Source of the DNA: Prostheceraeus crozeri | Taxonomy: Eukaryota; Platyhelminthes; Polycladida; Euryleptidae | Assembly: GCA_907163375.1 (NCBI GenBank) | Contig: CAJQUW010010475.1 | Location: forward strand, 111,344 to 175,343 | DNA length: 64,000 bases | Direction of reading: 5' to 3' | Shown: positions 31,601 to 55,320 of the stretch, piece by piece | Layout of the letters: each line of letters begins with the position of its first letter | Numbering within the stretch: the first letter of the stretch is position 1 | Position numbers and translations under genes: made by a program | Notes under the pieces: model-generated | What the model saw: only the letters and a program-made list of their open reading frames with translations | Told to the model about the DNA's origin: nothing | Databases searched by the model: none

Positions 31601-32177
31601 AGTAGTAAGCAAAACTCCACTTCTGGACCGCGCAAGATGGCGGCCATCGCTGCGTCCCCCCCCCTCTGGCACGGCAGAGTGTCGTGGTCGGCCGCCGTGG
31701 TGCTTCGTGTCTGAGTCCCCCCCCCCTGGAACGATAGAGGTTGTGGTCTGTCGTGGTGTGCCGGCAAGGTGGGTCCACGTTCACAACATGTTCGCTGACG
31801 TCCCCCCCTCTGCAACGACAGAGTGTGAGACTCGGGTGAGTTGGTCCGACCGCCTGGTTGACGTGGGCGACCGTCTAGGTTGACGTGGGCGACCGCCAGG
31901 ATTAGTCTTGAGGCTATAGTGTGTGATGTTTTTGGTGTGTAGCGTCCAAACGAAGCATCGGATGAGAAAACGGAGGCCAGATTCGGAATCTACGTGAAAT
32001 TTTGGGTTAGGAAGGATGTTTCCAGCGAAATCGGAGAGAAAAAATTTTCGGCTGACGTCCCCCCCCCCTGGACAGCTTGCTTCCAGTGGACGGATTTTGT
32101 CGTGCGATAGCTCGTTTGAAAGCTAAGAGTGAGACAAATTCAGTGAAAGAATCGGCTTGTTCCTATCTGTCTTCGTT
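31601..32177. repeat. Left terminal inverted repeat of the Polinton
   Basis: Matches the complement of 54740-55320 nearly base for base; the differences I saw are C-tract lengths and a few substitutions (for example ggcaagg against ggccagg). It contains four runs of 7-12 C, three of them followed by a TGnnACGnnAGAG-like word (about 31656, 31717 and 31802; the fourth is near 32060). The inner end at cttcgtt is where the arms diverge. Confidence 0.95.
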
Positions 32178-34474: not shown

Positions 34475-35710
34475 ATGGTGAACAACGATAGAAATAAGAA
34501 ATTTCATATTAAAATGTGCGTATGCGGTAGAATCAACCGCCGAGACGGTCTCAGGGACCACATAAGGAAGGCAGGGGCCGACCACATGGTTATCCTGAAT
34601 AGGGTTGCCTGTGTGAAGTGCAGGGTGCTGTTGGTTGTTGGGCAGGAGGCCGAGTTTTATCGGAGGCATGGTGAGTGTGTAGGAGGGTTGGTGACCGATT
34701 TGAGATTTACGCAGTTGATTGTGGAAGAGAGGGAGCGAATGTTGGCGAATGTTGCGAATGTTGTTGAGAATGTTGTTGAGAATGCTAGTGGGAATGTTGT
34801 TGAGAATGCTAGTGGGAATGCTGTGGAGAATGCTAGTGGGAATGCTGTGGAGAATGAGGTAGAGAATGCTGTGGCCGGTTTGAAGGCTGACAAGTGGCGG
34901 AAGAGAGTGTTTGAGAGTGATGATGAGGATGATGTGGATTTGGATAGGGAGCGAGTGAGGAAGTGTGTGAGGAAGTTGAGCTCTTCGTCATCGGAGGTAT
35001 CCAATATTGTTATTAGCGACCCCCCGAAGAGCTCATCTTCCCCAATAGTGAAGGGTGGTGGGGTACGGAAGCAGTCGGCGCGGTGGTATGAGGACATGGA
35101 AAAGAAGCATGTGTCGCAGCAAGCGGCACATGCTTTGTTGGTAGATCGCTACGAAAGTTTGAGGAAGGTGAATGAGAGAACGTTGAGTGAGTTGAGTGAG
35201 CTGAAAATGAAGGAGGTGAAATGTAAGGAGGTGGCAGATGAGAATATCCGTATGAGGCGTGTTGTGAAAGAGTTGAAGGAGAATGTGCGAGTGTTGGAAG
35301 ACAAGAATGATGAGTGTGAGAAGAGGGCGAGTGCTGCGGAGAGGAGAATGGGAGAGGCAGAAGCGAAGTTTGAGGAGATGATGAAGGAGATGAGTGTGTT
35401 GAGAGCGAGGAATGTTGAGTTGGAGAGGACTGTGGCTCGGCGGGGTGATGAGAGGCAGGCGTGTGAGAAGTTGGAGCGCATGAGGGATGAGTGGGAACGT
35501 GTGAATGAGGATCGTTTGTTTGAGTTCCACATCCCTATTCGGGATAACCATCTGGCCGGCGAAGTCCTCGTCAATAAAAGCCTGGACGAAAGCATTGTAT
35601 GCTATCATGGACATCCGAGCAAGAAATGCCTCCACGCTACACTAAGAATGCGCGGGCATCTCCACAAATTTTCAATCAGGAAGCCCGCGAGACTGCCTAA
35701 GGATGACTAA
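34475..35710 (+). CDS. Coiled-coil protein with N-terminal Cys/His cluster, unknown function
   Basis: A 411-aa protein I do not recognise. Residues 14-50 hold a metal-binding-looking cluster (CVC, then RDHIRKAGADH, then CVKC). Residues ~90-130 are a run of 8-residue repeats of the VENASGN type, encoded by a 24-bp minisatellite at about 34753-34875. An acidic DDEDD patch and a serine run follow. Residues ~200-355 are rich in E, K, R and L heptads, a long coiled coil. The tail is basic and His-rich (CYHGHPSKKCLH). A TATA box and putative leader intron lie upstream, and a donor follows 4 nt after the stop. It may be a structural or nucleic-acid-binding scaffold. Confidence 0.8.
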   Translation: MVNNDRNKKFHIKMCVCGRINRRDGLRDHIRKAGADHMVILNRVACVKCRVLLVVGQEAEFYRRHGECVGGLVTDLRFTQLIVEERERMLANVANVVENVVENASGNVVENASGNAVENASGNAVENEVENAVAGLKADKWRKRVFESDDEDDVDLDRERVRKCVRKLSSSSSEVSNIVISDPPKSSSSPIVKGGGVRKQSARWYEDMEKKHVSQQAAHALLVDRYESLRKVNERTLSELSELKMKEVKCKEVADENIRMRRVVKELKENVRVLEDKNDECEKRASAAERRMGEAEAKFEEMMKEMSVLRARNVELERTVARRGDERQACEKLERMRDEWERVNEDRLFEFHIPIRDNHLAGEVLVNKSLDESIVCYHGHPSKKCLHATLRMRGHLHKFSIRKPARLPKDD

Positions 35711-35714
35711 CTTG

Positions 35715-35775
35715 GTAAGTGAAAAAGTAAATAAGATAGTATATCCTATTCTAATACATATCATTTTCATTGCAG
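35715..35775 (+). other. Probable 61-nt intron directly after the stop codon
   Basis: Donor cttg|gtaagt begins 5 nt after the TAA of the 411-aa gene. The acceptor is cattttcattgcag ending at 35775. The size matches the 59- and 65-nt introns of polB. It would sit in the 3' untranslated region, unless alternative joining is used. Confidence 0.55.
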
Positions 35776-35810
35776 ATCTTTGCCTGCCTTCACCACCCCA
35801 TCAATTTACT

Positions 35811-35952
35811 CCCGAGAACGAACCATCGGCTCTCTTAAGGGCCACCTAGGGGCAAGACATGATAGAACCTCCACGCGGTTTGCCCTGGGCAGTCTTCGGA
35901 CTGGCGAATACTATCATTAAGTTGAATCTGCTATCAGTCAACTTGAACGTTG
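35811..35952 (+). repeat. 142-bp intergenic module, copy 1
   Basis: First of three near-identical copies (cccgagaacgaaccatcggc ... cagtcaacttgaac). It lies between the 411-aa gene and the 88-aa gene. In this copy the ATG of the embedded mini-frame reads ctagg (TAG) instead of catgg. Hairpin segments: gggcaa/ttgccc and aagttga/tcaactt. Confidence 0.9.
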
Positions 35953-35966
35953 CGTCGCGTTAGAGG

Positions 35967-36007
35967 GGTATATAAACCACTGCCTCTCATTTCATTTCAT
36001 TTCAATC
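35967..36007 (+). promoter_or_regulatory. TATA promoter of the 88-aa gene
   Basis: ggtatataaacc at about 35969 is followed by the pyrimidine-rich ctctcatttcatttcatttc and then the ATG at 36008. TATA-to-ATG distance is about 35 nt, so the leader is very short. Confidence 0.6.
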
Positions 36008-36274
36008 ATGCAGACGCCGAACAGTCAAGTCAGCTCTCCTCGCGGACCGCAGTTAAGGCCGCGAAATTTATTTGAGGAGTTTGTCAGGCTAGAGGAGCAA
36101 GACAGAGTCCACAACAATCTTGCTCGGATTGGCAATCCGATGACAGCAACTGCTGTCAATCCAACGGAATGGCGCTACATTCCACTCTATACTCACATGC
36201 CAGTTAGTGTGGAAGTCGACAGTTCTACCAAAGAGAGAGTCTTTGACTCTCTCAGCAGAATTGGTAGGCTGTAG
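36008..36274 (+). CDS. Small protein of unknown function (88 aa)
   Basis: It starts at the first ATG after a close TATA box. The N-terminus is Ser/Pro/Arg-rich (SSPRGPQLRPRNL), then comes a charged helix (FEEFVRLEEQDRVHNNLARIG) and a WRYIPLYTHMPVSVEV strand-like region. No family is recognised. Evidence for reality: its own promoter, a clear ATG, and a position between two module copies like the next gene. Confidence 0.6.
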   Translation: MQTPNSQVSSPRGPQLRPRNLFEEFVRLEEQDRVHNNLARIGNPMTATAVNPTEWRYIPLYTHMPVSVEVDSSTKERVFDSLSRIGRL

Positions 36275-36283
36275 GATGACGAC

Positions 36284-36424
36284 TCCCGAGAACGAACCAT
36301 CGGCTCTCTTAAGGGCCACCATGGGGCAAGACATGATAGAACCTCCTCGCGGTTTGCCCTGGGCAGTCTTCGGACTGGCGAATACTATCATTAAGTTGAA
36401 TCTGCTATCAGTCAACTTGAACAT
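36284..36424 (+). repeat. 142-bp intergenic module, copy 2
   Basis: Begins 10 nt after the stop of the 88-aa gene. It contains gccaccATGG, a perfect vertebrate-type Kozak context, opening a 45-codon frame (MGQDMIEPPRGLPWAVFGLA...) that continues past the module end. Confidence 0.9.
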
Positions 36425-36487
36425 TATGCAGTCGATTGCTATCCCTGAAGCATTCTGATTCGCTGTTGAGCAATTCATTGTTGAAAA

Positions 36488-36538
36488 CCCTATATAAGCC
36501 AGAAGATTGTAGCGCTTCTCATTCAATTTGAAGTCACG
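36488..36538 (+). promoter_or_regulatory. TATA promoter of the 83-aa gene
   Basis: ccctatataagcc at about 36490 is followed by the initiator-like cttctcattcaattt and the ATG at 36539. Spacing resembles that of the preceding gene. Confidence 0.6.
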
Positions 36539-36790: not shown

Positions 36791-36803
36791 TCAAATTCAC
36801 GTC

Positions 36804-36946
36804 CCCGAGAACGAACCATCGGCTCTCTTAAGGGCCACCATGGGGCAAGACATGATAGAACCTCCTCGCGGTTTGCCCTGGGCAGTCTTCGGACTGGCGA
36901 ATACTATCATTAAGTTGAATCTGCTATCAGTCAACTTGAACGTTGC
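36804..36946 (+). repeat. 142-bp intergenic module, copy 3
   Basis: Again directly after a stop codon (13 nt downstream), with the same perfect Kozak ATG. The mini-frame runs 50 codons to a different C-terminal end (about 36992). Confidence 0.9.
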
Positions 36947-37287
36947 AAATGCAGTTCGGTGTAATACTTCCTTTCGACGGGCGTTCCTGTAAAGGGCGGC
37001 GGTGAAACCCGTAGCTATGTATACCGCAAGGGACATTCGGCAATGGTCAATCTTGTTAAACCTCTCTGCGTCATGTTTGCAAGTGATTGCCTCTGTCTCA
37101 ACGTAGTATGCATTCGCGCCAGGGCGACATTTAGCCAACTGTCGAAGGTTGCCTAAAACTTTCCATTGCATACGTTATGAGAACCATGAGTTCTACCTGT
37201 CTCTATCAATGAGACGAATTGATGAATGGAATGAAATGGGAGGACACTCACGCGCCACACGCAACATAACACACTTCTCTCTTCCGT
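36947..37287. other. GC-richer spacer without clear gene
   Basis: No confident frame beyond the end of the mini-frame. Some short inverted words only. Possibly the 3' part of the preceding unit. Confidence 0.4.
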
Positions 37288-38435: not shown

Positions 38436-41400
38436 ATGGTAAGTTGAAAATTTCCTCTCATCTCCCTCAAACGTGTGACTAATAGCATCTTCCTCAATTT
38501 CAGGCATCAACTTCATCACCAACGCCCTCTCTTCTCGAGGAAAGTTTAGAGTTATTGAGTCAAGGTAGGTTGTAACACTACACTGAGGCTTGAACAGAGA
38601 TGAAAGAATGATTTCTCTTTCAGGTGATGTGAGTTCCAGCTCAGGACTCTCGCGGCAAGGCAACGAGTGGGAATGTGCCGACTGCGGACATATGTTTACA
38701 AGGAAGCACAGTCTCCTTCGACACATCAAACAACGTGTGTGTCAACGCAAAGCGGTGTCAATCTCCGGAGGTGAAGTTGATTCTGACGATGACATCTCCT
38801 TTCCTTGCGATTTGTGCCCTCTTTCTTTTGATAGTCACTTTCAGCGATCTTCGCACAGACTTCAACACACGCATGCAAATGATCACTACACCAACGGTAC
38901 CTCTACCATCTCCCTCATTAATGTTTCACATAATAATTTAGTACGCGACTACTGCATGGAGTCCAATACTCAAATTGTAGATTTTCCTGAGTGGCTCCTT
39001 CAAAATTCTAACATTATCGAAGCGCTCTTCAATAATTTAGACAATTTTAGAATGAAGGCGCTCATCTACCTTAAACTAAAATATATTAAAATAGATTTTC
39101 AAACGGGTCAAGTGACGGAGAGAATACAGTTTCATATTCCTTCCTCTTCCGCAACCGAAGTTGTAGACTGCGAGTCTTGGCTAAATTTTCACATTCAATG
39201 TTTAAAATCAAATGTAGATAAATTCAATCAACGCGACAGCGCTCTCATTTTTGATGGTGTGGACTCAGCCATATTCAAAATTTCCCTATTAGAAAGTCAT
39301 GCAGCTCGAGGCACATTTAAACTTCCAAAAACGTTGTATAATAAGAAAGCTGTCATCAATGTTGATTGTAAATCACAGTGTTTCAAATATGCAGTCCTAT
39401 CCATCCTTCACTATAATGATATCAACGCGCATCGAGATCGCACCTATAGCTATAGACAGTGGGAGGATGAACTAGACTTTGAAGGTTGTGATAGTAACAA
39501 CATGAAAATCAAAGATGTAGAAACGTTCGAAAAACATAATAAGATTAAAATTGTCGTTCACGTGTGGGAGAAGGGGTTGAAGGGTGCCCGCTATAATTCA
39601 CGTTCAACTTGTTATGAACGTGTAGTCAACCTCTTATTAGTAAAACAAGATGATAGCGAGGAATGGCACTACTGTGGTATTCCCAAAATCTCTCGCTTGT
39701 ACACTCACTTGGGGCACTCTAAAAGAGGTGAACATTTTGTATGCGACCGCTGCATCCGCTCATTTTGGAGTAAAGATAAATTTGAAACTCACTATGAATG
39801 GTGCAAGCGAGGTAAATTACAAATGGAACGCATGCCCAAAGATAAAATATTTTCACATAGGGATAATGGTGACGAATTAAGTCCCCTGCGTGTCATTTAC
39901 GCAGACATAGAATGCTACATTGATGATATCATCCACAAGCCAGCAGCCATATCCTGCTATGAAGTATGGCATGACCACTTTAGGAATAGACAAAACAAAA
40001 TGCATACTTGGCAAGGTGAAGATTGCATTTCAAAATTTCTAGAATTTCTCGATAAAGCTGCAAAATTTCAACAATCATATGATTCCCAATTGCAGCGTAA
40101 GTCACTACATATGTCAGATGAAGACAAACAAAAATTTGAAAGTTGCACATCCTGTCCTAAATGTCATAAAACGTTTGATGACGATAAAATTAAGAAAGTG
40201 CGTGATCATGATCACATCACTGGTAAATTTAGAAACGCACTCTGCTCCAAATGTAACTTTTCACTTAGGTTGAGACGTCGTGTACTACCCGTCATTTTTC
40301 ATAACTTTAAGGGCTATGACAGTCATATGCTCATAAAAGGAGGGTTGAGCCAGATGAAATCGTGGCAGTTTAATGTAATAGCACAAACGAGAGAAAAATT
40401 CATGGCAATGACAGCAAAAGTAGCAGTAGATAAAACTAAAGAAAATAAGACAGTCTTCTTCGAAATAAAATTTTTAGATTCATTTCAATTCATGTCAGCG
40501 TCACTAGCTTCTCTCGTTCGTAATCTCAAGTTTCTTCCCCATAGTCAAACTTTGAAGAAACACTATCCAAACTTAACGGATGAAATAATCACTCGCAAAG
40601 GAGTCTTTCCTTATGCGTATTTTAGCTCAATGTCTAAACTAAATGAAACAACCCTTCCTTCCATTGACAAATTCAAAAACGATTTGACGGGTGAAGATTG
40701 TCCAGTAGAGGACTATGAACATGCTCAAGAGGCATGGTTAAAATTTAATTGTAAAACGTTTGGCGATTATATGATCGCTTACTTAGAATTAGATGTCATT
40801 TTGCTGGCTGATGTCTTTCAGGAGTTTCGACGAGTGGCATTAGAAGAAGACAAATTAGATCCTATCCACTTTGTCAGTCTACCAGCCATGTCCTTTAAAT
40901 CAGCCTTTAAAATGACTGGTGAGACCATTCATCTCTTACAAGACCCGGAGATGTATAATATATTTGAGCGCGGAATACGCGGTGGTCTCACATTTGTAAA
41001 TAAACATCATATAAAATCTGAAACAGTAGGTGATGATCATATCCACCTAAAGTACTATGACCAAAATAATTTATATGGCAGTTCACTGTCTAAACCACTA
41101 CCTCATTCCGAGTTTAGTTGGTTAAATCAAAATGAGCTTGAGTATTACTCCAACCCTTCAAACATACTGAATATTCCAGATGAAGGTGATTGGGGATATT
41201 ATTTTGAAGTGGATTTGATTTATCCAAATAGTATTAAAAATAAAACTGCTGATTTCCCACTCGCACCTGAATCTGGCGAAGTGACTGAAGATATGTTTTC
41301 ACCATTCATGTCACAATTTCATAATAACTTAACAGAGTGTGGACAGCCAAGGTACAAACCATGCCGCAAACTTTTACTCACCCAATATGATAAGAAAAAT

Positions 41401-42408
41401 TATCTCGTACACTTCTGCATATTAAAATTCTATTTAGAAATGGGCATGCTTCTAAAGTCAGTTCACCGCATTATCAAATTTAGACAGAAAGCCTTCCTCA
41501 AACCCTACATAGATAGTAACAGTCAAAAACGTGCACTCGCCCAAAATAATTTTGAAAAGGATTTTTATAAATATAAGAATAATAGTCTATTCGGAAAGAC
41601 CATGGAGGATGTTAGAAAACGTATGAATTACAAACTAGTCGTTGATGAACAAAAATATCACAAATTGACCTCATCACCTCTTTTCATTGATAGAGACATC
41701 ATCGATGAGGATCTTGTAGGTGTTAAAATGATTAAATCAGAAGTTGAGTTGTGCAAACCCATCTATATTGGGCAAGCCGTTTTAGATTATTCCAAGCTTG
41801 AAATGTATCAACTCTTCTACAAAATATTAAAACCATGCCCTCTCGTAAAAGAGGTTCGCTTGCTGGGTGGTGATACAGATAGTTTCTTTTTAGGAATTAC
41901 CACTCAAAAAGATTTAAATTTTAATGAAGTAGGTAAGTCATTAGAAAAATATTTCGATACATCTAACTACAATCCCACTCATCCACTCTATTCCATACAG
42001 AATAAAGCCAAACTTGGTTGTTTTAAGGATGAAACAGCAGGAAAGGAAATAGATGAAATGATTCTCCTCCGTCCTAAAATGTATTCCATGAAACTAAAAG
42101 AATGTGCAGATAGTATTAAGCGTGCTAAAGGTATATCAAAATCCATTGTTCATAAAATGAAACATCGGTCCTATAAGAAGGCCTATAAAAATAAAACTAT
42201 AACGTTTGTCAATATGACAATCTTAAAATCTCAAGTTCATACTGTGAAAACGTACACGTTCAAGAAACGAGCACTTTCAGCATGGGAGGATAAGAGGTGT
42301 TGGATAGGACATAACACATCTCTTCCACATGGACATCCTGACACAAACATACCTCCACCCAAAAGAATAAAACTCACGCTACCACATTCAGGAGATGTAT
42401 TGACATAA
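38436..42408 (+). CDS. polB: Protein-primed family B DNA polymerase with two introns
   Basis: Replicates the element from a protein primer. I model three exons: 38436-38438 (the ATG alone), 38504-38564 and 38624-42408, with GT-AG introns of 65 and 59 nt. Frames join exactly, giving 1282 aa. Domains in order: two C2H2 fingers (ECADCGHMF, PCDLCPLSF), then a papain-like region with SQCFKYAV and WHYCGI, common in Polinton polymerases, and a third finger (FVCDRCIRSF). Next are exonuclease motif I YADIECYID (~447) and an endonuclease-VII-like zinc site DHDHITGKFRNALCSKCN. Exo II is HNFKGYDSHM (~581) and Exo III YLELDVILLADVF (~740). Polymerase A is DQNNLYG (~834), B NNSLFGKTMED (~1004), C GGDTDSFF (~1102), with KMY after it. 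All catalytic residues are present. It ends convergent with 42588. Confidence 0.97.
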
Positions 42409-42587: not shown

Positions 42588-44108
42588 TCACTTTGTTTTC
42601 CGAAACACTAAAGTTACGAGGGATTTAGTATCTTTCACATGGATACACTCTTGTAAACCATTGGTAATTTTGATAGCAATAGAGGGTATAGTTTGTTTGA
42701 CGACGGGATGATAGAAAATAGATTCAAACATCTTCTCGACTATTCCATATGAAGCGTCTTTATCATGAATGAAATCACGTAAAATGTATTCTTTTTTCTC
42801 GCCAACAGAAATAGGTAAAATCAAATCACTTTGAATGTAAAGGTGTTGTTCATGTTTATCAAGTGTCATTGGTGTTTCTATACCAATCGTATGCGCAGCA
42901 GCAAACACAGTTTGTAGCATTGAAAAGCCAAAGAGTTTTTTCAAATTTTTACTCAATTGACATTGAATGTCATCACCCAGTTTCAGAACAACGCGTTGTT
43001 TTTCAATTGAAAACGAAATGTGGTGTGTCTTTACATCATATTTACTTTTCATCACATGCTTCAACTTCTGTTGTATATAAGGATTTACTACATGAATGAA
43101 GCTTTCAACTGTATGATATAGACGCGGCATTATATTGATAGCAACTTTAGATTCTTCATAAGACTGGTAAATTTTCTTGATGCGATCGCCATAGATGTCC
43201 ACCCACCATTCATCATTAACTGAATCAGCTTTAGTGTGATATTCATGAGAACCATACACCACACCGCTTCCAATAATAGGCGTATAATGTCTTACAAAAT
43301 GACGCAAGGTTGGAGAGAAATAAACTGTAAGTTTGTCATTATATTTCTGAATAACCAACTTATTTTTGTCCGCCATAATTTTCTCTCCATACTTCTTACC
43401 CACAGTCTCATTCCATCGTTTTACTAACTCAATAAGTGATAAAGGTTGAACACCACGCTTTTTCAAAATGATGCGTTCTTCGCATTCTACAACATCTTCA
43501 TCAAATATTTTAAATCTATAATGAAATTTGTTGATTCGAGTTGAATAAACTTTTTTAACATTTGCAGTAGCAATTGACGTTAGATGTAGTCCATGACCAA
43601 AACCAAGATGTGGATAGAATTCACTATCCAACCTCAGCGTAAGACCTTTAGTAAAAGAATGAAAGCGGAGGAACTGTCTCCCACTCCAATGATAGATAGT
43701 AAACTCATAAGCTTTCTGATTTTTATTCTTCATGATGGAAGTATTACCACTGTTGAATGCCTTAATAATTTTCTCATTCCCAAATGGCTCATAAGAATCT
43801 GATTTTATCTGAATCCATTCATAGTTCCACTTTCCATCTGATGTTAAATTGTATGGGAACTGAAATGCATTATTCATCGTTATTCCATCATGGGTGCGAG
43901 GAGTCAATATCATTTCTTCCAAATCATTCACATTCTGAATATTGCTATCATAGCAAATACTAGAAACGCCAACTTCCCATTCACCTTCTAAATGCAGTGG
44001 CCGATTTAATTCTACTCGATAGTCTGATGGTTTATTTTTGGGAAATTTATTCATAGAAGCATTACTGGGCAAGTAGATTAGAAACGAGTCCTTATTTTCA
44101 CTTTCCAT
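42588..44108 (-). CDS. Polinton LPSN/WEVGV-type protein A, probable virion component
   Basis: A 506-aa protein from the ATG at 44108; an in-frame ATG 30 nt upstream (44138) would put the octamer motif at 44141-44148 only 3 nt away, so I prefer 44108. The N-terminus has the signature FLIYLPSNASMNKFP then LHLEGEWEVGVSSI, known to me from unannotated Polinton-linked proteins of many invertebrates. The middle has IMPRLYHTVESF and the end LVTLVF. It is paralogous to the next gene along its length, although diverged. Position among capsid genes suggests a virion role (minor capsid or penton-like), which is inference. Confidence 0.85.
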   Translation of the reverse strand: MESENKDSFLIYLPSNASMNKFPKNKPSDYRVELNRPLHLEGEWEVGVSSICYDSNIQNVNDLEEMILTPRTHDGITMNNAFQFPYNLTSDGKWNYEWIQIKSDSYEPFGNEKIIKAFNSGNTSIMKNKNQKAYEFTIYHWSGRQFLRFHSFTKGLTLRLDSEFYPHLGFGHGLHLTSIATANVKKVYSTRINKFHYRFKIFDEDVVECEERIILKKRGVQPLSLIELVKRWNETVGKKYGEKIMADKNKLVIQKYNDKLTVYFSPTLRHFVRHYTPIIGSGVVYGSHEYHTKADSVNDEWWVDIYGDRIKKIYQSYEESKVAINIMPRLYHTVESFIHVVNPYIQQKLKHVMKSKYDVKTHHISFSIEKQRVVLKLGDDIQCQLSKNLKKLFGFSMLQTVFAAAHTIGIETPMTLDKHEQHLYIQSDLILPISVGEKKEYILRDFIHDKDASYGIVEKMFESIFYHPVVKQTIPSIAIKITNGLQECIHVKDTKSLVTLVFRKTK

Positions 44109-44147
44109 ATTATTCACATTGGAAAAATATATTAGCATACTTTTGCA

Positions 44148-45545
44148 TTAACTCTTCATTCGGAAATGGAGTGTAATACTTGTCACAGCATCTTTATGAA
44201 AAGGAATCAACGCACCAGCATCATCATAAATGGCAATATCAATTTGTGGGATGTAGTTTGATTTCAGCTTTGTATAATGCACTTTCTTGAAAGTATGCTC
44301 AGATAAAATACTGCAGCTTTTTGGCTGGTATGGTATCATTGCTAGCAATGGAGCTTCAACATCTCCCACACGTACATCTTCACCAATATTGGAATATATC
44401 TGAAAATAGTTAATACGACGCGATAGCGACATGTCTGCGCTAGCTTTGGTTACAGTACCACTTTTAAAGATATTTTGATCAAAACCCAAAATGTCCATTA
44501 GAGTTTTATCCATAATTAGTTCAATACCTTTTCCATTTATAGTGAGAGACAAAGTACCTTCTTTTTCAGAAAATGAAATATGTTGCTCATTAATCACTTC
44601 ATTTAAATAATCTACAACCAATTTAACCGAAGTAATAATGCGAGGCATCAACACTCTTGTTTCATGTAAGAAACCACCAAAAGGCTCTACACACTTTCTG
44701 TATAAAGATACGGCCCATTCTGTATCAAATTGATTTGACCTTTCACATGGTAAATGTTGCATATCAGATTTTCCATGAACAGCTGCAGAACGATGTCGTA
44801 AGAACTGATGAAAATCTTTTGAACAAACTAATACTAGATCATCATCATTTAATTTACTTATTGCAATATGATTAGATGATTTAATATAAGTCAATGTTGC
44901 CACTTGTTTGTCATCAACTCGAAGGAGATAATTAAATTTCTTCAATAATGTTTCAGGAGTCATGTTTGTCTTTCTTGGCTTAATCACAATCTTCTTCACC
45001 AACGTCTTCTCATTTCTTGGAATAAGATCTACATAATAAGCTTCCTCTCGATATATTAACTGTTTATGACCACTTATGTGGTAATTAACGTTAAAATTAT
45101 CATAGCTTGTTAAGGCGCTAGCGAGGTAGCCTAAATCATTTCTTAAACTTGGACTTAAACCAACAATCCAATCTTTCTCAACTACATGATGTACATAATT
45201 ATAATCATCATTGTGCGGAGTAAATTGGACAATATGTTTACACGCTTTATTCAAGAAATCATATATAAACTTTTTACATGATAAGAGATCTTTCTTTGGC
45301 CACTGTGGAATGTATATTCGGCACCCCTTTTCACATTGATAAGCAGCTGTACGCCTCATATTAATAGTCATCACCTCATGATCAAAAGTATAGACACAGT
45401 TGCTATAAACAAGTTGAGTGACACCCACTTCCCAATTCCCATTTAGCTGTTGTGCATGATCAATGGGAGTAGAAAAGAGTGCGGCTCGATTGCTAGTAAA
45501 TCTCTTTGTAGCCGCATTGCTAAGCAAAATATGATAAAACGACAT
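44148..45545 (-). CDS. Polinton LPSN/WEVGV-type protein B, probable virion component
   Basis: A 465-aa protein from the ATG at 45545. Same architecture as protein A: FYHILLSNAATKRFTSNRA, then LNGNWEVGVTQLVY near the N-terminus, VLMPRIITSVKLVVDYL in the middle, and a DIAIYDDAGALIPFH ... ITLHFRMKS end. That C-terminal pattern is typical of these proteins. It starts 22 nt downstream of a minus-strand ATGCAAAG motif (45567-45574), shared divergently with the gene at 45581. Function unknown; likely virion structural. Confidence 0.85.
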   Translation of the reverse strand: MSFYHILLSNAATKRFTSNRAALFSTPIDHAQQLNGNWEVGVTQLVYSNCVYTFDHEVMTINMRRTAAYQCEKGCRIYIPQWPKKDLLSCKKFIYDFLNKACKHIVQFTPHNDDYNYVHHVVEKDWIVGLSPSLRNDLGYLASALTSYDNFNVNYHISGHKQLIYREEAYYVDLIPRNEKTLVKKIVIKPRKTNMTPETLLKKFNYLLRVDDKQVATLTYIKSSNHIAISKLNDDDLVLVCSKDFHQFLRHRSAAVHGKSDMQHLPCERSNQFDTEWAVSLYRKCVEPFGGFLHETRVLMPRIITSVKLVVDYLNEVINEQHISFSEKEGTLSLTINGKGIELIMDKTLMDILGFDQNIFKSGTVTKASADMSLSRRINYFQIYSNIGEDVRVGDVEAPLLAMIPYQPKSCSILSEHTFKKVHYTKLKSNYIPQIDIAIYDDAGALIPFHKDAVTSITLHFRMKS

Positions 45546-45566: not shown

Positions 45567-45574
45567 CTTTGCAT
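45567..45574 (-). promoter_or_regulatory. ATGCAAAG octamer-like motif, divergent
   Basis: 22 nt upstream of the minus ATG at 45545 and 6 nt upstream of the plus ATG at 45581. One of a series of such motifs before right-half genes. Confidence 0.5.
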
Positions 45575-45580
45575 AACATC

Positions 45581-45937
45581 ATGAAGACTTGGATTTTGGA
45601 CTCTCTACAATATATCAGAGTTGATCGTGATGGAAACGTACATTTCAAAAATTCTCATGGTCATACATCAAGAGGAATTACATTAACATGGCGACAATTT
45701 GTCAACCTCAATGATATCATGAGGGATTTGGAATATTTTGAAACATTAAGATTCATCTCCTTGGGTGATCAAGTTTGGCTTCAACATTACAGAAATGAAA
45801 TTCAAATCTACCATTCTCATTCCGCAAACTGTTTCTCATTTCGCAAATACAATTGGGAGAAGTATAGAAGATACATACATCGCTCCATCATGACATTTAT
45901 TCGTCGTGAGTTCATCGCCCTACTATGCAAATCTTAA
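45581..45937 (+). CDS. LDSLQ/WEKY family protein 1 (118 aa)
   Basis: Starts at MKTWILDSLQ. Shared with the next gene are LDSLQ.I..D.D.NV.FK.S, then L..R.F..L..IM.DL.YF, IG/LG..(V/I)WL, IQ(I/L)YHS, WEKY(R/K)R..HRSI. The GNVHFKNS...GITLTWRQFVNLNDIM stretch faintly recalls the strand-then-helix pattern of PC4-type ssDNA-binding coactivators (KGISL..QW..L), but this is too weak to assert. It ends with its stop just after the octamer motif that precedes the next gene. Confidence 0.8.
   Translation: MKTWILDSLQYIRVDRDGNVHFKNSHGHTSRGITLTWRQFVNLNDIMRDLEYFETLRFISLGDQVWLQHYRNEIQIYHSHSANCFSFRKYNWEKYRRYIHRSIMTFIRREFIALLCKS
45925..45932 (+). promoter_or_regulatory. ATGCAAAT octamer-like motif
   Basis: Exact octamer on the plus strand, 27 nt before the ATG at 45960 and embedded in the last codons of the previous gene. 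Confidence 0.5.
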
Positions 45938-45959: not shown

Positions 45960-46610
45960 ATGAGTTGGAAATTAGATTCCCTACAACGTATTGAAACGGA
46001 TCATGATCGAAACGTCTATTTCAAAGATTCAACTGGAAATGTGAGAAGAGAGTTTGTTTTATCTTATCGTCATTTTCAATCTCTACATCATATCATGAAG
46101 GACTTGAAATACTTCTATATGAAAAGACATTCACGTATTGGAAATCGCATCTGGCTGCGCGTCAACAATCGGCGAATTCAACTCTATCATTCCCAACTTC
46201 ATACTAACTTCACATTTCATCAAGGTAGTTGGGAAAAGTATAAAAGGAAGGTACATCGCTCAATTTACTCATTCTTTCATCATGAAGCGCCATCGCTACA
46301 CCATCGTCAACATTCTCCGTCGCTTCAGACTCTACACCAAAATCGATCTCACAACATTACGCCAACAGCTTCCAAACAGCAAGTATTACCCGGGCCGTCC
46401 TCAAATGTTAGTAGTGAAGATGAACAATTCACGGAATCTTCAACTCTTCCCAAATGGGACTGTACAGATTCTCGGCGCCCTTTCTCATTCATCGGCGCAG
46501 TCAATGCGCTTAGAGCTACAGAGACTACTACGTCGGATATGGAAGAGGGAGAGGTGTGTGATGTCGAATCTGACTGTGGACAATATGGTGATCTCTACTC
46601 AATTGAGTGA
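45960..46610 (+). CDS. LDSLQ/WEKY family protein 2 with disordered tail (216 aa)
   Basis: Residues 1-110 are paralogous to the preceding gene (WKLDSLQRIETDHDRNVYFK ... WEKYKRKVHRSI). Residues 111-216 are low-complexity, Ser/His/Gln-rich, then acidic (SSEDEQF, DMEEGEVCDVESDCG). This tail is read entirely over the TBP-like gene in another frame (overlap 46282-46610), so it may be a passenger of the overlap or a genuinely dual-coded region. The tail has no hydrophobic core and looks unfolded. Confidence 0.7.
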   Translation: MSWKLDSLQRIETDHDRNVYFKDSTGNVRREFVLSYRHFQSLHHIMKDLKYFYMKRHSRIGNRIWLRVNNRRIQLYHSQLHTNFTFHQGSWEKYKRKVHRSIYSFFHHEAPSLHHRQHSPSLQTLHQNRSHNITPTASKQQVLPGPSSNVSSEDEQFTESSTLPKWDCTDSRRPFSFIGAVNALRATETTTSDMEEGEVCDVESDCGQYGDLYSIE

Positions 46611-46827
46611 CAGTCTATCATTTTTGAAGATTCGTACCAGCAGTTACAGTTTGTGTTATGAACCCGAACTTTTTCCTGCAGCTCTCATTAGTTGTTGGTT
46701 GCCTGTGCATGTGGCAATCTTTCATAATAGTAAAGTGATCATTACTGGACTAAAATCTCATGAACAAGCAAATATGATCCTAGACTATCTCATTGAGTAT
46801 GTACGTACCCAGCGGATTGTAAAATAA
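46282..46827 (+). CDS. TATA-binding protein (TBP) homologue
   Basis: A 181-aa protein from ATG 46282, exactly the size of a TBP core. Two pseudo-repeats are visible (residues ~6-85 and ~97-175). Repeat 1: IDLTTL, then NSKYYPGRP (TBP has NAEYNPKRF), LQLFPNGTVQILGALS (TBP: ALIFxSGKMVxTGAKS). Repeat 2: VDNMVIS (TBP: IQNIVGS), SLCYEPELFPAALI (TBP: SSYEPELFPGLI), VAIFHNSKVIITGLKS (TBP: LLIFVSGKIVLTGAK). Of the four DNA-kinking phenylalanines, three are kept (F56, F131, F147) and the first is replaced by P40/Q41. Asn101 of repeat 2 is kept. Likely binds promoter DNA in the nucleus or viral factory and recruits Pol II. The stop codon lies inside AATAAA. Confidence 0.9.
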   Translation: MKRHRYTIVNILRRFRLYTKIDLTTLRQQLPNSKYYPGRPQMLVVKMNNSRNLQLFPNGTVQILGALSHSSAQSMRLELQRLLRRIWKRERCVMSNLTVDNMVISTQLSDSLSFLKIRTSSYSLCYEPELFPAALISCWLPVHVAIFHNSKVIITGLKSHEQANMILDYLIEYVRTQRIVK

Positions 46828-46858
46828 AAAACAATTTTTCCAACATGATGTTTTTATT
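46823..46858. terminator. Convergent poly(A) signals fused to stop codons
   Basis: Plus AATAAA at 46823-46828 contains the TAA stop of the TBP-like gene. Minus AATAAA at 46853-46858 contains the TAA stop of the protease. The intergenic gap is 26 nt. Confidence 0.75.
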
Positions 46859-47315
46859 TCAAATCATGATAGAACTTACAAATCATTTTTTCATTAGAGG
46901 ATGGATTACATGAAAAGTTTTGAATAATAGATGCAAATCGAGATACATGTAAACGTTTTAAGATGAAGTACAGTACAAAAGCACCACACGTTGATGAAAG
47001 TGGATGTTGTAGTATGCGTTCATTTCGCTGATATTGACGCGTATGTTTTCTCAACCACTGCTGTGTTGGTATATTTGGAGGTTGAGCAAGAGAGTCAAAT
47101 AGTTCACCACGTCGGTCTTTTCCAATAAAGATCGCTTTCCAATGCTCACCGCCTAAATTCTGTGAATGAGTGTTTAGCACAATAAAGATGGGATAGTGAT
47201 TTACTGCAGGTGGTAAGGTATCGAGTGAATAGACATTATCGAAAGCTTTCAACGTCGCTTCGTCTGCATTATGCTGCACTTTAGTCTTAATATCGTCAGC
47301 AGTCAACCAACTCAT
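46854..47315 (-). CDS. PRO: Adenain-type (Ulp1-fold) maturation cysteine protease
   Basis: A 153-aa protease that in adenoviruses and Polinton-like viruses cleaves virion proteins. Catalytic layout is complete: His58 in GGEHW, Asp74 in LFDS, Gln103 in LQHPLSSTCGAF and Cys110 in the same motif. Its length is shorter than adenain (~204 aa) but normal for Polintons. Its ATG overlaps the TAA of the capsid gene (TAATG), so it is probably expressed from the same transcript unit. Confidence 0.95.
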   Translation of the reverse strand: MSWLTADDIKTKVQHNADEATLKAFDNVYSLDTLPPAVNHYPIFIVLNTHSQNLGGEHWKAIFIGKDRRGELFDSLAQPPNIPTQQWLRKHTRQYQRNERILQHPLSSTCGAFVLYFILKRLHVSRFASIIQNFSCNPSSNEKMICKFYHDLK

Positions 47316-48592
47316 TAACGATTATACTGAAGAATCACGTCACGATACTTTGTAATTTCAATATTTGAATCGAAGACTGCATAAATTAATACATTGATCG
47401 TCTCAGGTAGTGTTCTTTTGAACGTCAAATCCAAACGAATATTATGAGGCACGTTCGCTTGACGATAGGGTGCACTAATATCGCTGTCAGCAGTCAAATC
47501 AAATGCATAAATAGTATATCCACTCTTAAACTCTTTCATAGTCAGTCCGTTGGTATCATCCGTATTGTAAAAGCCAAAGACATCCATAAAATCAACATAA
47601 CTGCGCATAAATTGATCCGAAGCAAAATCTGGTTTGTAGGGTGGACCAGGATGACTCACACCATTAACACGTAAAGCAATTTCACTTAACTGATTGTGTT
47701 TAAAATTGAAAGGATTCTTCTTTATATTACCATTAAATGCATCATTTTCAACCATTGCCACCATGAGGAGCTTCGGTGCTTCCGATGGAAAGAGGCCATC
47801 TTTCATGAAACTCTTTTGATCTTTCGGAATTGTAAAGGTGAGAAGCTTTGTATGCTGAACGGGGTAAATGGCATTTTGGCGGTTAAGACCTTCAGCATGC
47901 CCTCTAATGACACTTGGATTCGGTACTACTCGACGAATGTAAAGTGCAATATCTTCCACATGAATTCTAAAATTGTCAACTTTAGCAAATGCATTCAGCG
48001 CAAATTCAGGCTTATTCAATGTCAGCTTGAGTCGCATGCTGGTATTACAGAGTAAAAACTTTGACTGTCTAAAGAAGTCTAAATTCAGCGGACCATATAG
48101 CTGACATACTCTACTATCTTTAATCATAGCAGATCGCTTTACAAAGCCACTGTTTGTTTCAACATCAAATTTTCCTGCTTCATCTCTGTACCATCCCATG
48201 GCTTCCATATGACTTTTTTGTGCTGCTGGATGAAACTGCGATACATGAGTGAAATATGATTTATAGGGATAATCGCTTTGACCACCTTCCACCTGCTGCT
48301 CTCCAATCGTTAGAGAAACATCGCGAAGTAATGTAGTCAATGGTAAATTGTTCAGTCCAACTTTATGTGCATCGTCAATAGCAGTTCCATCTGCTTGCTG
48401 AATTCTAAACCTCAAATCAAGCATCGCATAACTCAAATCTATGTAGTCATCACTACCACCAGGAATAACAAATTCAATGGGGCCAGCATTCTCAGCTGTT
48501 CGAGGATGATAATCTACAATACTTGAACTAAGAATATCTGTCTGTATGGCTTGTTGATCGAACAAACAAAAACCGGAAGTTTTACACTCCAT
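47315..48592 (-). CDS. Probable major capsid protein (double jelly-roll family)
   Basis: A 425-aa protein of the F54H12.2-like group commonly found in invertebrate Polintons. Features: CLFDQQAIQTDI start, IEFVIPGGSDDYIDLSYAML (the conserved early strand block), an LTTLLRDVSLTIGEQQV strand, PLNLDFFRQSKFLL, and the C-terminal LDLTFKRTLPETINVLIYAVF strand pair. Beta-rich sequence and size fit a jelly-roll capsid protein. I cannot tell major capsid from a minor one without structure modelling. It begins 2 nt after the stop of the basic 151-aa gene and abuts the protease. Confidence 0.8.
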   Translation of the reverse strand: MECKTSGFCLFDQQAIQTDILSSSIVDYHPRTAENAGPIEFVIPGGSDDYIDLSYAMLDLRFRIQQADGTAIDDAHKVGLNNLPLTTLLRDVSLTIGEQQVEGGQSDYPYKSYFTHVSQFHPAAQKSHMEAMGWYRDEAGKFDVETNSGFVKRSAMIKDSRVCQLYGPLNLDFFRQSKFLLCNTSMRLKLTLNKPEFALNAFAKVDNFRIHVEDIALYIRRVVPNPSVIRGHAEGLNRQNAIYPVQHTKLLTFTIPKDQKSFMKDGLFPSEAPKLLMVAMVENDAFNGNIKKNPFNFKHNQLSEIALRVNGVSHPGPPYKPDFASDQFMRSYVDFMDVFGFYNTDDTNGLTMKEFKSGYTIYAFDLTADSDISAPYRQANVPHNIRLDLTFKRTLPETINVLIYAVFDSNIEITKYRDVILQYNR

Positions 48593-48594
48593 GA

Positions 48595-49050
48595 TTAGAA
48601 GTTATAGCAGCGTCGTCGTTTAGCGCCTGATGAATGATTAGAGCCTCTGCGACGTTTGCGTGAATGCCTTTTGACTGAAGATTGCACCTTACCAGCTCCG
48701 CGATGTTTCCTCCTTCCTTTTCTCATTCGTTTAGGTGATTTCTTTCCTTGAGTAACACCAGCAATGGTCTGCTTCAATGTTTTTAAACCGCGTTCCTTCC
48801 CACGATTCAACAAACTGCTCTTGAAACTTCTACCTCTGGAAAGATCACTAGCAACATCACCAGCAAAGCCAACGGCATTACTTAAAACATTTCGTTTTAA
48901 AGATCTACCGACATTGGATATGAGAGGTGCTACAACAGATTTCAGTGCACCAAGTATGCTACCTCCACGTTGGCGGCGAGCACCGATGTAAATTTGTCCT
49001 CCGCCACTTACGTAGGAGGGTCGTGAATAAAATGAGGCAGTTGGATTCAT
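48595..49050 (-). CDS. Small basic virion-like protein (151 aa)
   Basis: Gly-rich N-terminus, then GARRQRGGSILGALKSVVAPL, an amphipathic helix preceded by RGG like the adenoviral pVI/pX group processed by adenain. The C-terminal third is strongly basic (RMRKGRRKHRGAGK, KRHSRKRRRGS), suited to DNA binding. I infer a core or membrane-active virion protein. It opens the capsid-protease unit and has an octamer-like motif 30 nt upstream. Confidence 0.75.
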   Translation of the reverse strand: MNPTASFYSRPSYVSGGGQIYIGARRQRGGSILGALKSVVAPLISNVGRSLKRNVLSNAVGFAGDVASDLSRGRSFKSSLLNRGKERGLKTLKQTIAGVTQGKKSPKRMRKGRRKHRGAGKVQSSVKRHSRKRRRGSNHSSGAKRRRCYNF

Positions 49051-49091: not shown

Positions 49092-50312
49092 TCACTGTCG
49101 ATCACTTAGATGAAAGATGTCGGCACGACGCATCCAAGAGTTCATACTTGAAGGATAACCAGTCCATTTAACAAGACACCATTCTTCACCTTGCCGTTTT
49201 TTACATCGAATGATTTTCTCTACCAAATATGTTTCACTTTCAGTGACTACCTCAATCTCATCGCGGTAAAAGCTACCCTCAATTTCTTCATTATCGTAAT
49301 CTTTCAACTTGTAGGTGGTCGGAGAGTCTTTTTGATTAATCCTTGATACTGTAAATACCTCCTCTGTCCAATTCGGGAGGTACCCTTTAGCAAAAACACT
49401 TTTCACTTTTGAGATACGAACTTTATCGCCAATTTTCACATCACTTTTCACATGAGTGCGTTTACGTTGGAATGATTCGCGCACTTTATCTACATTGTTA
49501 GCATTTACATCTACTGGTCTGAGTCCAATAGAACGATGGATAGAGTGATTGTAGGCATGGAGTGTATCTTGTAGAACCTTTGTCCAATTTTGTGTCAAGT
49601 TGGCAGTAAAATGTCGCCACAAACGATTTTTTAATGTGCGATTAAAACGTTCAACGAGTGCAGCTTTATAAGCGCTCTTTACACTAAACAACTCAATGTC
49701 ATGCCTCTCAAATAATCTTGTCACATGCTGATTTTCAAACTCTTTTCCTTGATCACTCTGAATTCTTTTTGGAATGCGACCTTCTCGAAAAATTGTTTGG
49801 AATGCTTTTGCTACTCCTTTCCCTTCTTTAGTTTTTAAAGGTTGAGCCCACGCATAACGCGAGAAAATATCAATGACGGTTAAAATAAAATTATTGCCCG
49901 AGTTATGTTTTGAAATGGAGGCAACATCGCACAAATCTGCTTGCCACTGTTCATCGATGTCATGAACAATATAATGGCGGGTGCGGTACTTCTTTTTCGC
50001 TTGTTTGTGGAGTGTATAGGTAGCCTGACCCTTTAACCATCGTTTCACTTGTGATTGTGGAAGACCACTCGCTTTTGATAATTTCTTGATAGATGCAAAT
50101 CCTGCCGGATGTTTTACATCATAATAGATTGACTTCAAACGTTCAGTCGATGACGGCTGACTCTTTTTCCTCCTTCTCATCTTTTTTCTTTCTTGCCTTT
50201 CTACATTTACAACAACTGCAGCATTTAGCTTTAGCGGTTTTGCGATCGTGTTCACATTGCTTAGGGGTTTCATTATGAGAGCTGGCGCAGCAAGTGCAAG
50301 TGACAACGACAT
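49092..50312 (-). CDS. INT: Retroviral-type DDE integrase with chromodomain
   Basis: Catalyses insertion of the linear element. A 406-aa protein: basic start (RKKMRRRKK), helix-turn-helix-like SIKKLSKASGLPQSQVKRWL (~74-93), then the rve core. Catalytic triad is Asp126 (QADLCDV), Asp187 (IQSDQGKEF) and Glu221 (ALVERFNRTLK). An SH3-like region follows (VKIGDKVRISK), then a C-terminal chromodomain (YLVEKIIRCKKRQGEEWCLV then KWTGYPSSMNSW, ~366-400) which could steer integration to modified histones. The start is uncertain because a Cys-rich frame overlaps the first ~57 codons. Confidence 0.96.
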   Translation of the reverse strand: MSLSLALAAPALIMKPLSNVNTIAKPLKLNAAVVVNVERQERKKMRRRKKSQPSSTERLKSIYYDVKHPAGFASIKKLSKASGLPQSQVKRWLKGQATYTLHKQAKKKYRTRHYIVHDIDEQWQADLCDVASISKHNSGNNFILTVIDIFSRYAWAQPLKTKEGKGVAKAFQTIFREGRIPKRIQSDQGKEFENQHVTRLFERHDIELFSVKSAYKAALVERFNRTLKNRLWRHFTANLTQNWTKVLQDTLHAYNHSIHRSIGLRPVDVNANNVDKVRESFQRKRTHVKSDVKIGDKVRISKVKSVFAKGYLPNWTEEVFTVSRINQKDSPTTYKLKDYDNEEIEGSFYRDEIEVVTESETYLVEKIIRCKKRQGEEWCLVKWTGYPSSMNSWMRRADIFHLSDRQ

Positions 50313-50359: not shown

Positions 50360-51052
50360 TTAATAGTCTGAGAACATGTATTTCCTAGGAGGAGCTGTTT
50401 TACGTTTTCCTTTTACCAGTTTTAGTGGCGATGTAGATCTACGTCGAGTTCTTCCTCTTGTTTGCTTAGTGAGTGTGGGAGGGGATGTAGCAGGTGACGT
50501 CTTAAACCAATTTGTTGGCATTTTCATCGCCTGAAGCATTGGAGTAGTAGCCACTGTTGAATCAAGTTCTTTCAATGTCTCATTATTTAAAGCAAATTTT
50601 GGCACATTATGCTTTTTCAATAGTTTAAGAAAGTATGACCAACCAGGTGGAACATAGCCCTGACGGCGCTTTCTACGTGTCGCATACTGAATCAAGTCTT
50701 CATAACGTGAAGCATCAATCACTTTATTTTCATCTGTAATGATTTCTCCTCTATCATTTACATTGAGATGGGGTTCAATACTGTTGAAAAGAGATATGGC
50801 ATGTGCGCGAGATGCTAAAGGTGTAGCAGTCGATACAGAGTCACGCATCTTATTCTTCAAGTTTTTCAATTGCTCAACAGTTTCCGATTGTAATAATACA
50901 GCACGATGTGGATCTTTGATGTGAACATTTTGCTGATAATCTATTTCTTTCCTATACATTTGATTTGCAAGAGGTTGCTTTACTTGCTGCATGGCAGTCA
51001 ATTGTACATATTCATCCTGAGGAATAACAATCATGCGAGAATAAGAACTCAT
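50360..51052 (-). CDS. Conserved Polinton protein, basic tail (230 aa)
   Basis: N-terminus SRMIVIPQDEYVQLTAMQQV resembles the MxLVPxE start of a short protein that usually neighbours the ATPase or integrase in invertebrate Polintons. A central helical part (VEQLKNLKNKM) and WSYFLKLLKKHNVPKFAL follow, then a Ser/Thr/Pro- and Arg-rich tail (RGRTRRRSTSPLKLVKGKRK). Function unknown; virion or DNA-condensing role is possible. Its ATG overlaps the ATPase stop (ATGA). Confidence 0.75.
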   Translation of the reverse strand: MSSYSRMIVIPQDEYVQLTAMQQVKQPLANQMYRKEIDYQQNVHIKDPHRAVLLQSETVEQLKNLKNKMRDSVSTATPLASRAHAISLFNSIEPHLNVNDRGEIITDENKVIDASRYEDLIQYATRRKRRQGYVPPGWSYFLKLLKKHNVPKFALNNETLKELDSTVATTPMLQAMKMPTNWFKTSPATSPPTLTKQTRGRTRRRSTSPLKLVKGKRKTAPPRKYMFSDY

Positions 51053-51666
51053 AGTTTGTAGATAATCATGGGAGTTTTCAAAATATCACTTCGAAATCTA
51101 AATTCTTCCGGACACTCTTGCGTAAAGTCAATGAATAAGTAACCGTATGGTTTTTCAGTAGCTGCTTGAAAAATTTCAATTAAGGCTTTTGATCCTCTGG
51201 GTGCAACTTGTCGCGCTAAAATTTCAAATTGACTTTTATCTCGCGGATTCTTGAAAATAGCATAATAGTGTGTATTCAGGTTTCGTGTACGAGCTTCTTT
51301 TCCATCAGGAAACAAATTTTGTGTAATATAGATGATAAAACACCTTTTATGGTGTGCTGCGCGAGTGAACATATCTGTAACATCTTTTGAATTCTTACTT
51401 TCTTTTAATAAATCATCCAATACAACAACATCATTAGACTGAAGTTTATCCACTGGAATAATTCCTTCATGTCGAATAAAGTTGCGACTTTGCAATTCCT
51501 GAAACAGCGACGGTTGATAAATACCATAACACCAAATCACTCGATTGATAGGTTCCTTAAACAACTCCCTTCTTTTATCCAATAAATTCAGCGTGAAAAC
51601 AGTTTTACCTGCATGAGATGGACCTGATACAGTCAGAACTTTATCACATTGAAGTCTGAAATCCAT
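51049..51666 (-). CDS. ATP: FtsK/HerA-type genome-packaging ATPase
   Basis: A 205-aa protein from ATG 51666 (MDFRLQCDKV). Walker A is SGPSHAGKT at residues ~14-22 and Walker B is DVVVLDDLL at ~80-88. A sensor-like FIIYITQNLF follows. It would pump DNA into the procapsid. An exact ATGCAAAT motif lies 21 nt upstream. The small size is typical of Polinton ATPases. Confidence 0.95.
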   Translation of the reverse strand: MDFRLQCDKVLTVSGPSHAGKTVFTLNLLDKRRELFKEPINRVIWCYGIYQPSLFQELQSRNFIRHEGIIPVDKLQSNDVVVLDDLLKESKNSKDVTDMFTRAAHHKRCFIIYITQNLFPDGKEARTRNLNTHYYAIFKNPRDKSQFEILARQVAPRGSKALIEIFQAATEKPYGYLFIDFTQECPEEFRFRSDILKTPMIIYKL

Positions 51667-51687
51667 TTTATTACTTTGAGACTCAAC

Positions 51688-51695
51688 ATTTGCAT
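51688..51695 (-). promoter_or_regulatory. ATGCAAAT octamer motif
   Basis: Exact octamer on the minus strand, 21 nt before the ATPase ATG and partly inside the end of the upstream 118-aa gene. Confidence 0.5.
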
Positions 51696-51697
51696 AA

Positions 51698-52054
51698 TTA
51701 ACGCTTAGAGCCAAAGATATTTCCCAATAGGTTGCCCACGGCAGGAGCTATCATTGGAAGTATTGCTGAAAGGAAACCGCCCTTTTGTGTTAGAGTTTTC
51801 CTCTTTCTTTGAAGGGCGACTTTAGGATTGGAGATGAAACGCAATTTCGTAGCATATCGCTTAAGTAACTTTCGTTGTTTTGGCGCTAATTTCTTCGTCC
51901 TCAACTTCCTCACATGAGAAATAATTTCACAAATGAATTTATCGTTAGCATGTCGTATAGCATTGTATCGCTGATTTGCTTTCATTCGTCGGAGAGCTTG
52001 AATGGCTGAAGAAAACTTTTGACTTTTACGTTTCGTCATTTTACGTTTCGCCAT
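51698..52054 (-). CDS. Basic protein with hydrophobic C-terminal helix (118 aa)
   Basis: Very basic throughout (AKRKMTKRKSQK, LRTKKLAPKQRKLLKRYA, LQRKRKTLTQK), then GGFLSAILPMIAPAVGNLLG, an amphipathic or membrane-active helix after a Gly-Gly. This pattern is shared with Polinton virion proteins proposed to resemble adenoviral pVI/pX. I infer a core or lytic virion component processed near GG. An ATGCAAAT motif lies 38 nt upstream. Confidence 0.75.
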   Translation of the reverse strand: MAKRKMTKRKSQKFSSAIQALRRMKANQRYNAIRHANDKFICEIISHVRKLRTKKLAPKQRKLLKRYATKLRFISNPKVALQRKRKTLTQKGGFLSAILPMIAPAVGNLLGNIFGSKR

Positions 52055-52092: not shown

Positions 52093-52100
52093 ATTTGCAT
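52093..52100 (-). promoter_or_regulatory. ATGCAAAT octamer motif
   Basis: Exact octamer on the minus strand, 38 nt before the ATG at 52054. Confidence 0.5.
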
Positions 52101-52105
52101 AGGTA

Positions 52106-54739: not shown

Positions 54740-55320
54740 AACGAAGGCAGATACGAACAAGCCGATTCTTTCACTGAATTTGTCTCACTCTTAGCTTTCA
54801 AACGAGCTATCGCACGACAAAATCCGTCCACTGGAAGCAAGCTGTCCAGGGGGGGGGACGTCAGCCGAAAATTTTTTCTCTCCGATTTCGCTGGAAACAT
54901 CCTTCCTAACCCAAAATTTCACGTAGATTCCGAATCTGGCCTCCGTTTTCTCATCCGATGCTTCGTTTGGACGCTACACACCAAAAACATCACACACTAT
55001 AGCCTCAAGACTAATCCTGGCGGTCGCCCACGTCAACCTAGACGGTCGCCCACGTCAACCAGGCGGTCGGACCAACTCACCCGAGTCTCACACTCTGTCG
55101 TTGCAGAGGGGGGGGGACGTCAGCGAACATGTTGTGAACGTGGACCCACCTGGCCGGCACACCACGACAGACCACAACCTCTATCGTTCCAGAGGGGGGG
55201 GGGACTCAGACACGAAGCACCACGGCGGCCGACCACGACACTCTGCCGTGCCAGAGGGGGGGGGGACGCAGCGATGGCCGCCATCTTGCGCGGTCCAGAA
55301 GTGGAGTTTTGCTTACTACT
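54740..55320. repeat. Right terminal inverted repeat of the Polinton
   Basis: Complement of 31601-32177, ending GCTTACTACT. It has the same four homopolymer tracts, here runs of G on the plus strand. Immediately followed by atgcat. Confidence 0.95.

Follow-up and report, generated by a model that had tools for sequence, protein, structure and literature searches.

A TATA-binding protein gene carried by Polinton-type elements of the flatworm Prostheceraeus crozeri

Animal Polintons/Mavericks and adintoviruses carry genes for PolB, INT, ATP, PRO and capsid proteins. Here, we describe an element of this type in the polyclad Prostheceraeus crozeri that also encodes a TATA-binding protein (TBP). 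It lies in a 64,000-nucleotide (nt) stretch of contig CAJQUW010010475.1 (positions 111,344 to 175,343 of the forward strand), hereafter the window, whose coordinates are used throughout. Like Polintons, Mavericks and adintoviruses, the 23.7-kb element has an integrase, a protease-like protein, a PolB-like protein, a weak A32-like ATPase and long inverted repeats; unlike them, it carries TBP and tandem, putatively PUR-like genes. A first, sequence-only reading of the window had held that TBP is not among the known Polinton genes and, consistent with this, our literature search on Polintons or Mavericks with TBP, TATA-box or TFIID brought up no report of it. TATA and TBP were looked for and not found in PMC11071296, PMC4028283, PMC11071308, PMC10120064 and PMC4642659; PMC7786948 and PMC12085832 contain both the name Polinton and a term for TBP.

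TBP is encoded together with RNA polymerase subunits by mirusviruses (PMC10132985) and a megavirus (PMC11464507), B263R of African swine fever virus is a large-virus TBP (PMC5825884), and heliorhodopsin-containing, mirusvirus-like elements integrated in Cymbomonas sporadically hold TBP genes (PMC10675990). All the viral TBPs in these papers thus belong to large viruses or to integrated relatives of such viruses. The large-virus proteins resemble the window TBP in being a virus-borne TBP fold, and giant-virus TBPs are structural matches to it; the Cymbomonas genes likewise sit within integrated virus-like elements of a eukaryote, although that host is a green alga and not an animal. In contrast to the mirusviruses and the megavirus, the 24-kb window element yielded no RNA polymerase subunit: no RNA polymerase appeared among the Pfam matches of 20 scanned open reading frames (ORFs), and host RNA polymerase II (Pol II) is therefore the likely enzyme transcribing it. 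Hence, there are precedents for TBP in viruses and in integrated viral elements, and TBP in a Polinton lacking RNA polymerase appears to be new as far as searched.

The TBP-fold gene and its relatives

46282..46827, + strand: TBP gene, 181 amino acids (aa), both TBP repeats (ATG at 46282, 181 codons, stop at 46825-46827)

The protein matches Pfam family PF00352 (TBP) in two stretches with an E value of 7.6e-21 and 74.2 bits, against a curated cut-off of 22.9, and it has the two pseudo-repeats that form the saddle. Among PDB sequences, 35 of the 37 matches listed at E≤10 were TBPs or TBP fusions, one of them labelled solely "ECU04_1440 protein" and the best at 2.8e-14; the remaining two were TonB (E 1.6-1.7). 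Identity to solved TBPs is 20-27%, and giant-virus TBPs are among the structural matches. The sequence-only reading had proposed a whole TBP core with both repeats, YEPELFP, NMV.S and KVI.TG.KS motifs and three of four intercalating phenylalanines, to be checked by a profile search, and these results bear it out: YEPELFP, NMV.S and KVIITGLKS are all present and, at the positions that we take to be intercalating, F56, F131 and F147 are kept and the first phenylalanine aligns with P40.

Beyond this genome, a single-sequence TBP search gave 60 of 99 candidates at E≤0.001, and a profile search matched 1001 of 4363 (120 of these 1001 being listed), with a tail that may hold cellular TBPs. Scans of phage records returned nothing for TBP or PolB, and a scan of plasmid records returned three haloarchaeal TBPs alone, for query P0085. 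In the 138 homologs retrieved, the signature residues are nearly fixed. Taking the DNA- and TFIIB-touching positions to be those of the TBP literature, the kinking phenylalanines F56 and F147 are kept in all 138 and F131 in 137; the TFIIB stirrup is held at E127 (135), E129 (137) and L130 (125), as are the DNA contacts N101 (138), V103 (138) and T155 (136). Other positions have changed and then become nearly fixed, namely the floor residues Q62 in place of V (138/138) and Q54 in place of a hydrophobic residue (134/138), together with T to L64 (120/138) and V to H143 (137/138). By this pattern of kept and changed residues, repeat 2 is nearer to the canonical form and repeat 1 is rewritten, and the polar side chains in the minor-groove floor, whose facing is assigned without coordinates, suggest an altered base preference. 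With animal TBP and TRF2/TLF, the protein shares the two-repeat saddle and the TFIIB stirrup; in the host TRF2-like gene, H and Y replace the C-terminal phenylalanine pair, whereas the Polinton protein keeps that pair and has lost the first N-terminal phenylalanine.

In a quick tree, 72 Polinton-type TBPs fall on one side of a branch with a Shimodaira-Hasegawa-like approximate likelihood ratio support of 100 and a length of 3.9 changes per site; the other side holds the host TBP, the host TRF2-like protein, two cellular TBPs and two viral TBPs. Given this 72-member clade and its stem, TBP is of long standing in these elements rather than newly taken from Prostheceraeus crozeri, in agreement with the earlier suggestion of an old capture or fast change. 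The tree program warns of long branches, and the stem, where long branches meet, does not separate a host from a viral source. The two viral TBPs in the tree, taken from IMG/VR, fall outside the Polinton-type clade. The TBPs of the viral contigs L060 and L061 look canonical and share 52-53% identity with that of the host.

The Polinton-type element and its copies

31601..32067, + strand: left terminal inverted repeat (outer part)
54849..55320, - strand: right terminal inverted repeat (outer part)
49092..50312, - strand: INT, rve integrase with chromodomain (Pfam rve 1.8e-10, Chromo 6.6e-7)
46854..47315, - strand: PRO, Ulp1/adenain-like protease, convergent with TBP (tail to tail; Pfam C48 6.6e-4, 20.0 bits, cut-off 20.7)
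38590..42408, + strand: PolB-like protein, 1272 aa, with Endonuclease VII domain (Endonuclease_7 7.5e-7, above cut-off)
51049..51714, - strand: ATPase, A32-like, weak (Pox_A32 E 0.022, under cut-off)
47315..48592, - strand: probable major capsid protein (syntenic homologs in families B and C, below)
48595..49050, - strand: PX-like basic protein (syntenic homologs in B and C)
51698..52054, - strand: O118, basic 118-aa protein (Adeno_PX 0.0024, under cut-off; family C homolog with the same box type)
42588..44138, - strand: JR1, 516 aa
44148..45566, - strand: JR2, 472 aa, JR1 relative (adjoins P4/TBP in families A, B and C)
45581..45937, + strand: P4a, tandem P4b relative (42% identity)
45960..46610, + strand: P4b, small protein modelled over aa 1-117 as a PUR-alpha-like fold (frame shared with TBP over the initial 329 nt of the latter)

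The long terminal inverted repeats by which Polintons are recognized bound the element from 31601 to 55320, and the RVE-family integrase scores 41.4 bits against a cut-off of 32.6; the element is of Polinton type and carries a complete TBP-fold gene. A second match of PRO, to adenovirus C5, is under its cut-off. The 1272-aa protein, a candidate for the protein-primed PolB of Polintons, has what we take, by eye, to be polymerase motifs, and it gave no PolB match in Pfam or PDB. The candidate for the double jelly-roll major capsid protein has no Pfam match, and the PX-like protein is a putative assignment. PHROGs gave no match for TBP or PRO and weak ones for the capsid-like protein and the ATPase. 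No matching 6-mers, as expected of a 6-bp target-site duplication, were seen flanking the one copy in the window.

In the 2.05-Gb genome, the TBP profile search returned at least 150 scored rows. Among those listed, 146 were taken as non-host, two were read as exons of the host TBP (C9306; L001, L003) and two (C3829; L002) belong to what we presume to be a TRF2-like gene. From these 146 we took 20 loci, each with at most 8 kb of surrounding sequence, and Polinton genes stood beside TBP in every one (20/20). These loci form four families: A, to which the window copy belongs (8), B (1), C (2) and D (9). TBP lies between PRO and JR genes in A, B and C; in D the Polinton gene in view is a PolB relative near TBP, and more than one type of element may carry the TBP module.

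A protein search again returned at least 150 rows, those listed all being 100% identical to the window TBP and located on contigs with numbers no higher than 2530, out of 14165; the true number of identical copies may be near 1000, extrapolated on the assumption of contig order. From these identical proteins, the spread of the element is recent. Thirty such copies, a sample biased by its choice for identical protein, show 0.2-1.0% divergence from the window across 3.5 kb. In the PRO search, 102 of 150 scored rows were listed as 100% identical and were spread over the genome, and on contigs up to 2530 all 14 of 14 had an identical TBP adjoining, as counted by eye. A single stop occurs in 5 of 49 TBP rows (a set including the 30 copies chosen for identity), and two of the five represent one and the same locus. 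Between families, the ratio of nonsynonymous to synonymous divergence (dN/dS) of TBP is 0.20-0.42 where dS is finite, rough values given that dS is above 1.

P4b gave no convincing Pfam or PDB match by sequence, and its best Foldseek E was 0.094. An initial reading of it as PC4 found no support; PUR-alpha appeared instead, with moderate strength, and such a model would be in line with a transcription module. An N-terminal extension of at least 8 aa occurs in 37 of the 138 TBP homologs, and 11 of the 37 show, by eye, G-x-S/N-I-K; the end of the window P4b read out of frame is GKSIK, which fits this motif, and the overlapping neighbour is therefore probably kept in those extended homologs. Dual-coding constraint on the overlap was not clear, with synonymous TBP changes at 9 of 75.3 sites inside vs 7 of 46.3 outside (36 copies, of which 30 had been chosen because their protein is identical and two contain a stop).

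Several further structures were observed. The left end of the element holds, at 32226-33293, four copies of a unit of about 190 nt at a spacing of about 290 nt that were not seen at the right end. A 411-aa ORF at 34475-35710 lies in strong GC skew (0.28 over 34001-36000) and has no Pfam match above cut-off, and the - strand ORFs 36089-36526 and 36797-37171 are identical to each other over some 45 residues, a duplication within the element. In family D (L042, L046 and similar loci), P4 and TBP stand beside the PolB relative without a window-type protease or capsid gene in view. One family A copy (L045:3906-6197) has its TBP interrupted by roughly 1.7 kb of inserted sequence, and a family C locus (L059:1007-1851) has two tandem O118 relatives. 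Two identical TBP copies on contig C1902 (G000:C1902:26444 and 37558) run in the same direction 11.1 kb apart, below one element length, and are nested or partial copies.

Candidate element promoters and the proposed role of the protein

We consider it reasonably likely that many Polinton-type elements, forming a large group, regularly include a TBP-family gene of ancient origin whose product replaces host TBP at element promoters. The protein would bind DNA there and recruit TFIIB, with a use in element replication or virion production, and the element may in this way steer host Pol II to its own genes, as the sequence-only reading had suggested. In favour of this stand the identity and fold of the protein, its linkage to Polinton genes in 20 of 20 loci, the between-family dN/dS, the residues kept across the 138 homologs, the lack of an RNA polymerase match in the element, the P4b model and the recent spread. 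Because repeat 2 keeps the stirrup and both kinking phenylalanines, it could seed the host TFIIB/Pol II complex, and the changed floor would alter the DNA that is accepted. Some observations weigh against this proposal. The first kinking phenylalanine is proline in the window and in 132 of the 138 homologs (3 gaps), departing from a canonical TBP with all four, so that the canonical role is not given. Scans of viral contigs with TBP, alignment A1, PolB, P0101 and P0085 found no relative that would place homologs in an element context, and no window-type capsid or protease gene was seen in the 8-kb stretches of family D. Finally, dS is saturated between families, and dN/dS within families is noisy (0.17-1.11).

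45521..45527, + strand: TAAGCAA box, 60 nt before P4a
45924..45930, + strand: TATGCAA box, 36 nt before P4b
45569..45575, - strand: TATGCAA box, 30 nt before JR2
51690..51696, - strand: TATGCAA box, 30 nt before the ATPase ATG
52095..52101, - strand: TATGCAA box, 47 nt before ORF O118
46239..46244, + strand: TATAAA, 43 nt before the TBP start codon, inside P4b codons

A more specific idea, which we regard as less likely than not, is a private promoter system in which host TBP reads the TATAAA before the TBP gene and the element TBP then reads TAWGCAA, as a private core box ahead of capsid-like and packaging genes, and brings in TFIIB and Pol II. The floor rebuilt around Gln54, Gln62 and His143 could tolerate a G-C pair. 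In an open scan of the 90-nt upstream regions for 6-mers (4096 words), the top word in family A was ATGCAA (7 genes vs 0.51 expected; Poisson 1.1e-6, about 0.005 after correction), and in the separate B and C set it was AAGCAA (8 vs 0.98; 8.8e-6, about 0.04 corrected). TAWGCAA matches lie upstream of genes in 5 of 10 cases in A (0.36 expected), 2 of 3 in C (L057) and 2 of 2 in B, and JR2 is preceded by the box in all three families; in an additional family C stretch, fetched after the pattern was fixed, 1 of 3 was upstream, 37 nt before the O118 homolog. Weighing against a private box, the pattern was shaped on the same data, family B is one degenerate copy whose gene starts (including JR1) come mostly from alignment ends, some matches abut stop codons, and ATGCAAAT in family A is also what we take to be a host octamer word. 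The exact word ATGCAAA was rejected as a shared box, its 4 occurrences in family C all being inside genes; the looser TAWGCAA alone is shared.

The same residues bear on an unlikely alternative, that the protein is a decoy: by binding TFIIB or promoters of the host, it would dampen host transcription instead of starting its own. Kept TFIIB contacts beside a changed DNA floor and one lost phenylalanine would suit such a blocker. However, the DNA contacts N101, V103 and T155 are retained and the polar residues new to the floor vary hardly at all, which suggests a specific DNA target, and a candidate private box exists.

Slightly less probable still is that the protein is a second TBP boosting ordinary TATA promoters of the element. 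A TATAAA does precede the TBP gene, at -43 in families A and D and at -46 in C (none in B), but it sits in P4b codons, so that constraint on the P4b protein may explain it, and the floor V and T have given way to Q, L and H. The several TATA promoters claimed in the sequence-only reading found no support: of 19 TATAAA on both strands of the 21.3-kb core, 2 lie at most 90 nt upstream of a same-strand gene (0.68 expected), with 2 of 22 in family C (L057; 0.99 expected) and 0 of 1 in B, and upstream TATAAA is not clearly enriched. A non-transcriptional use of the saddle, for example in bending packaging, terminal or replication-origin DNA, would fit the position of the gene in A, B and C, between PRO and JR and away from known transcription genes, but it gives no reason for the TFIIB-contact residues to persist and we regard it as very improbable.

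If the element TBP does replace host TBP, its conservation in 24-kb elements that depend on Pol II of the host would show that core promoters, together with the protein that reads them, are separable from those of the host. A private promoter system would, if real, amount to a core-promoter switch encoded by an element that has no RNA polymerase itself. The element protein would then be a natural, re-specified TBP for probing the determinants of TBP DNA preference, and TBP also serves as a marker by which this large group of Polinton-type elements can be recognized.
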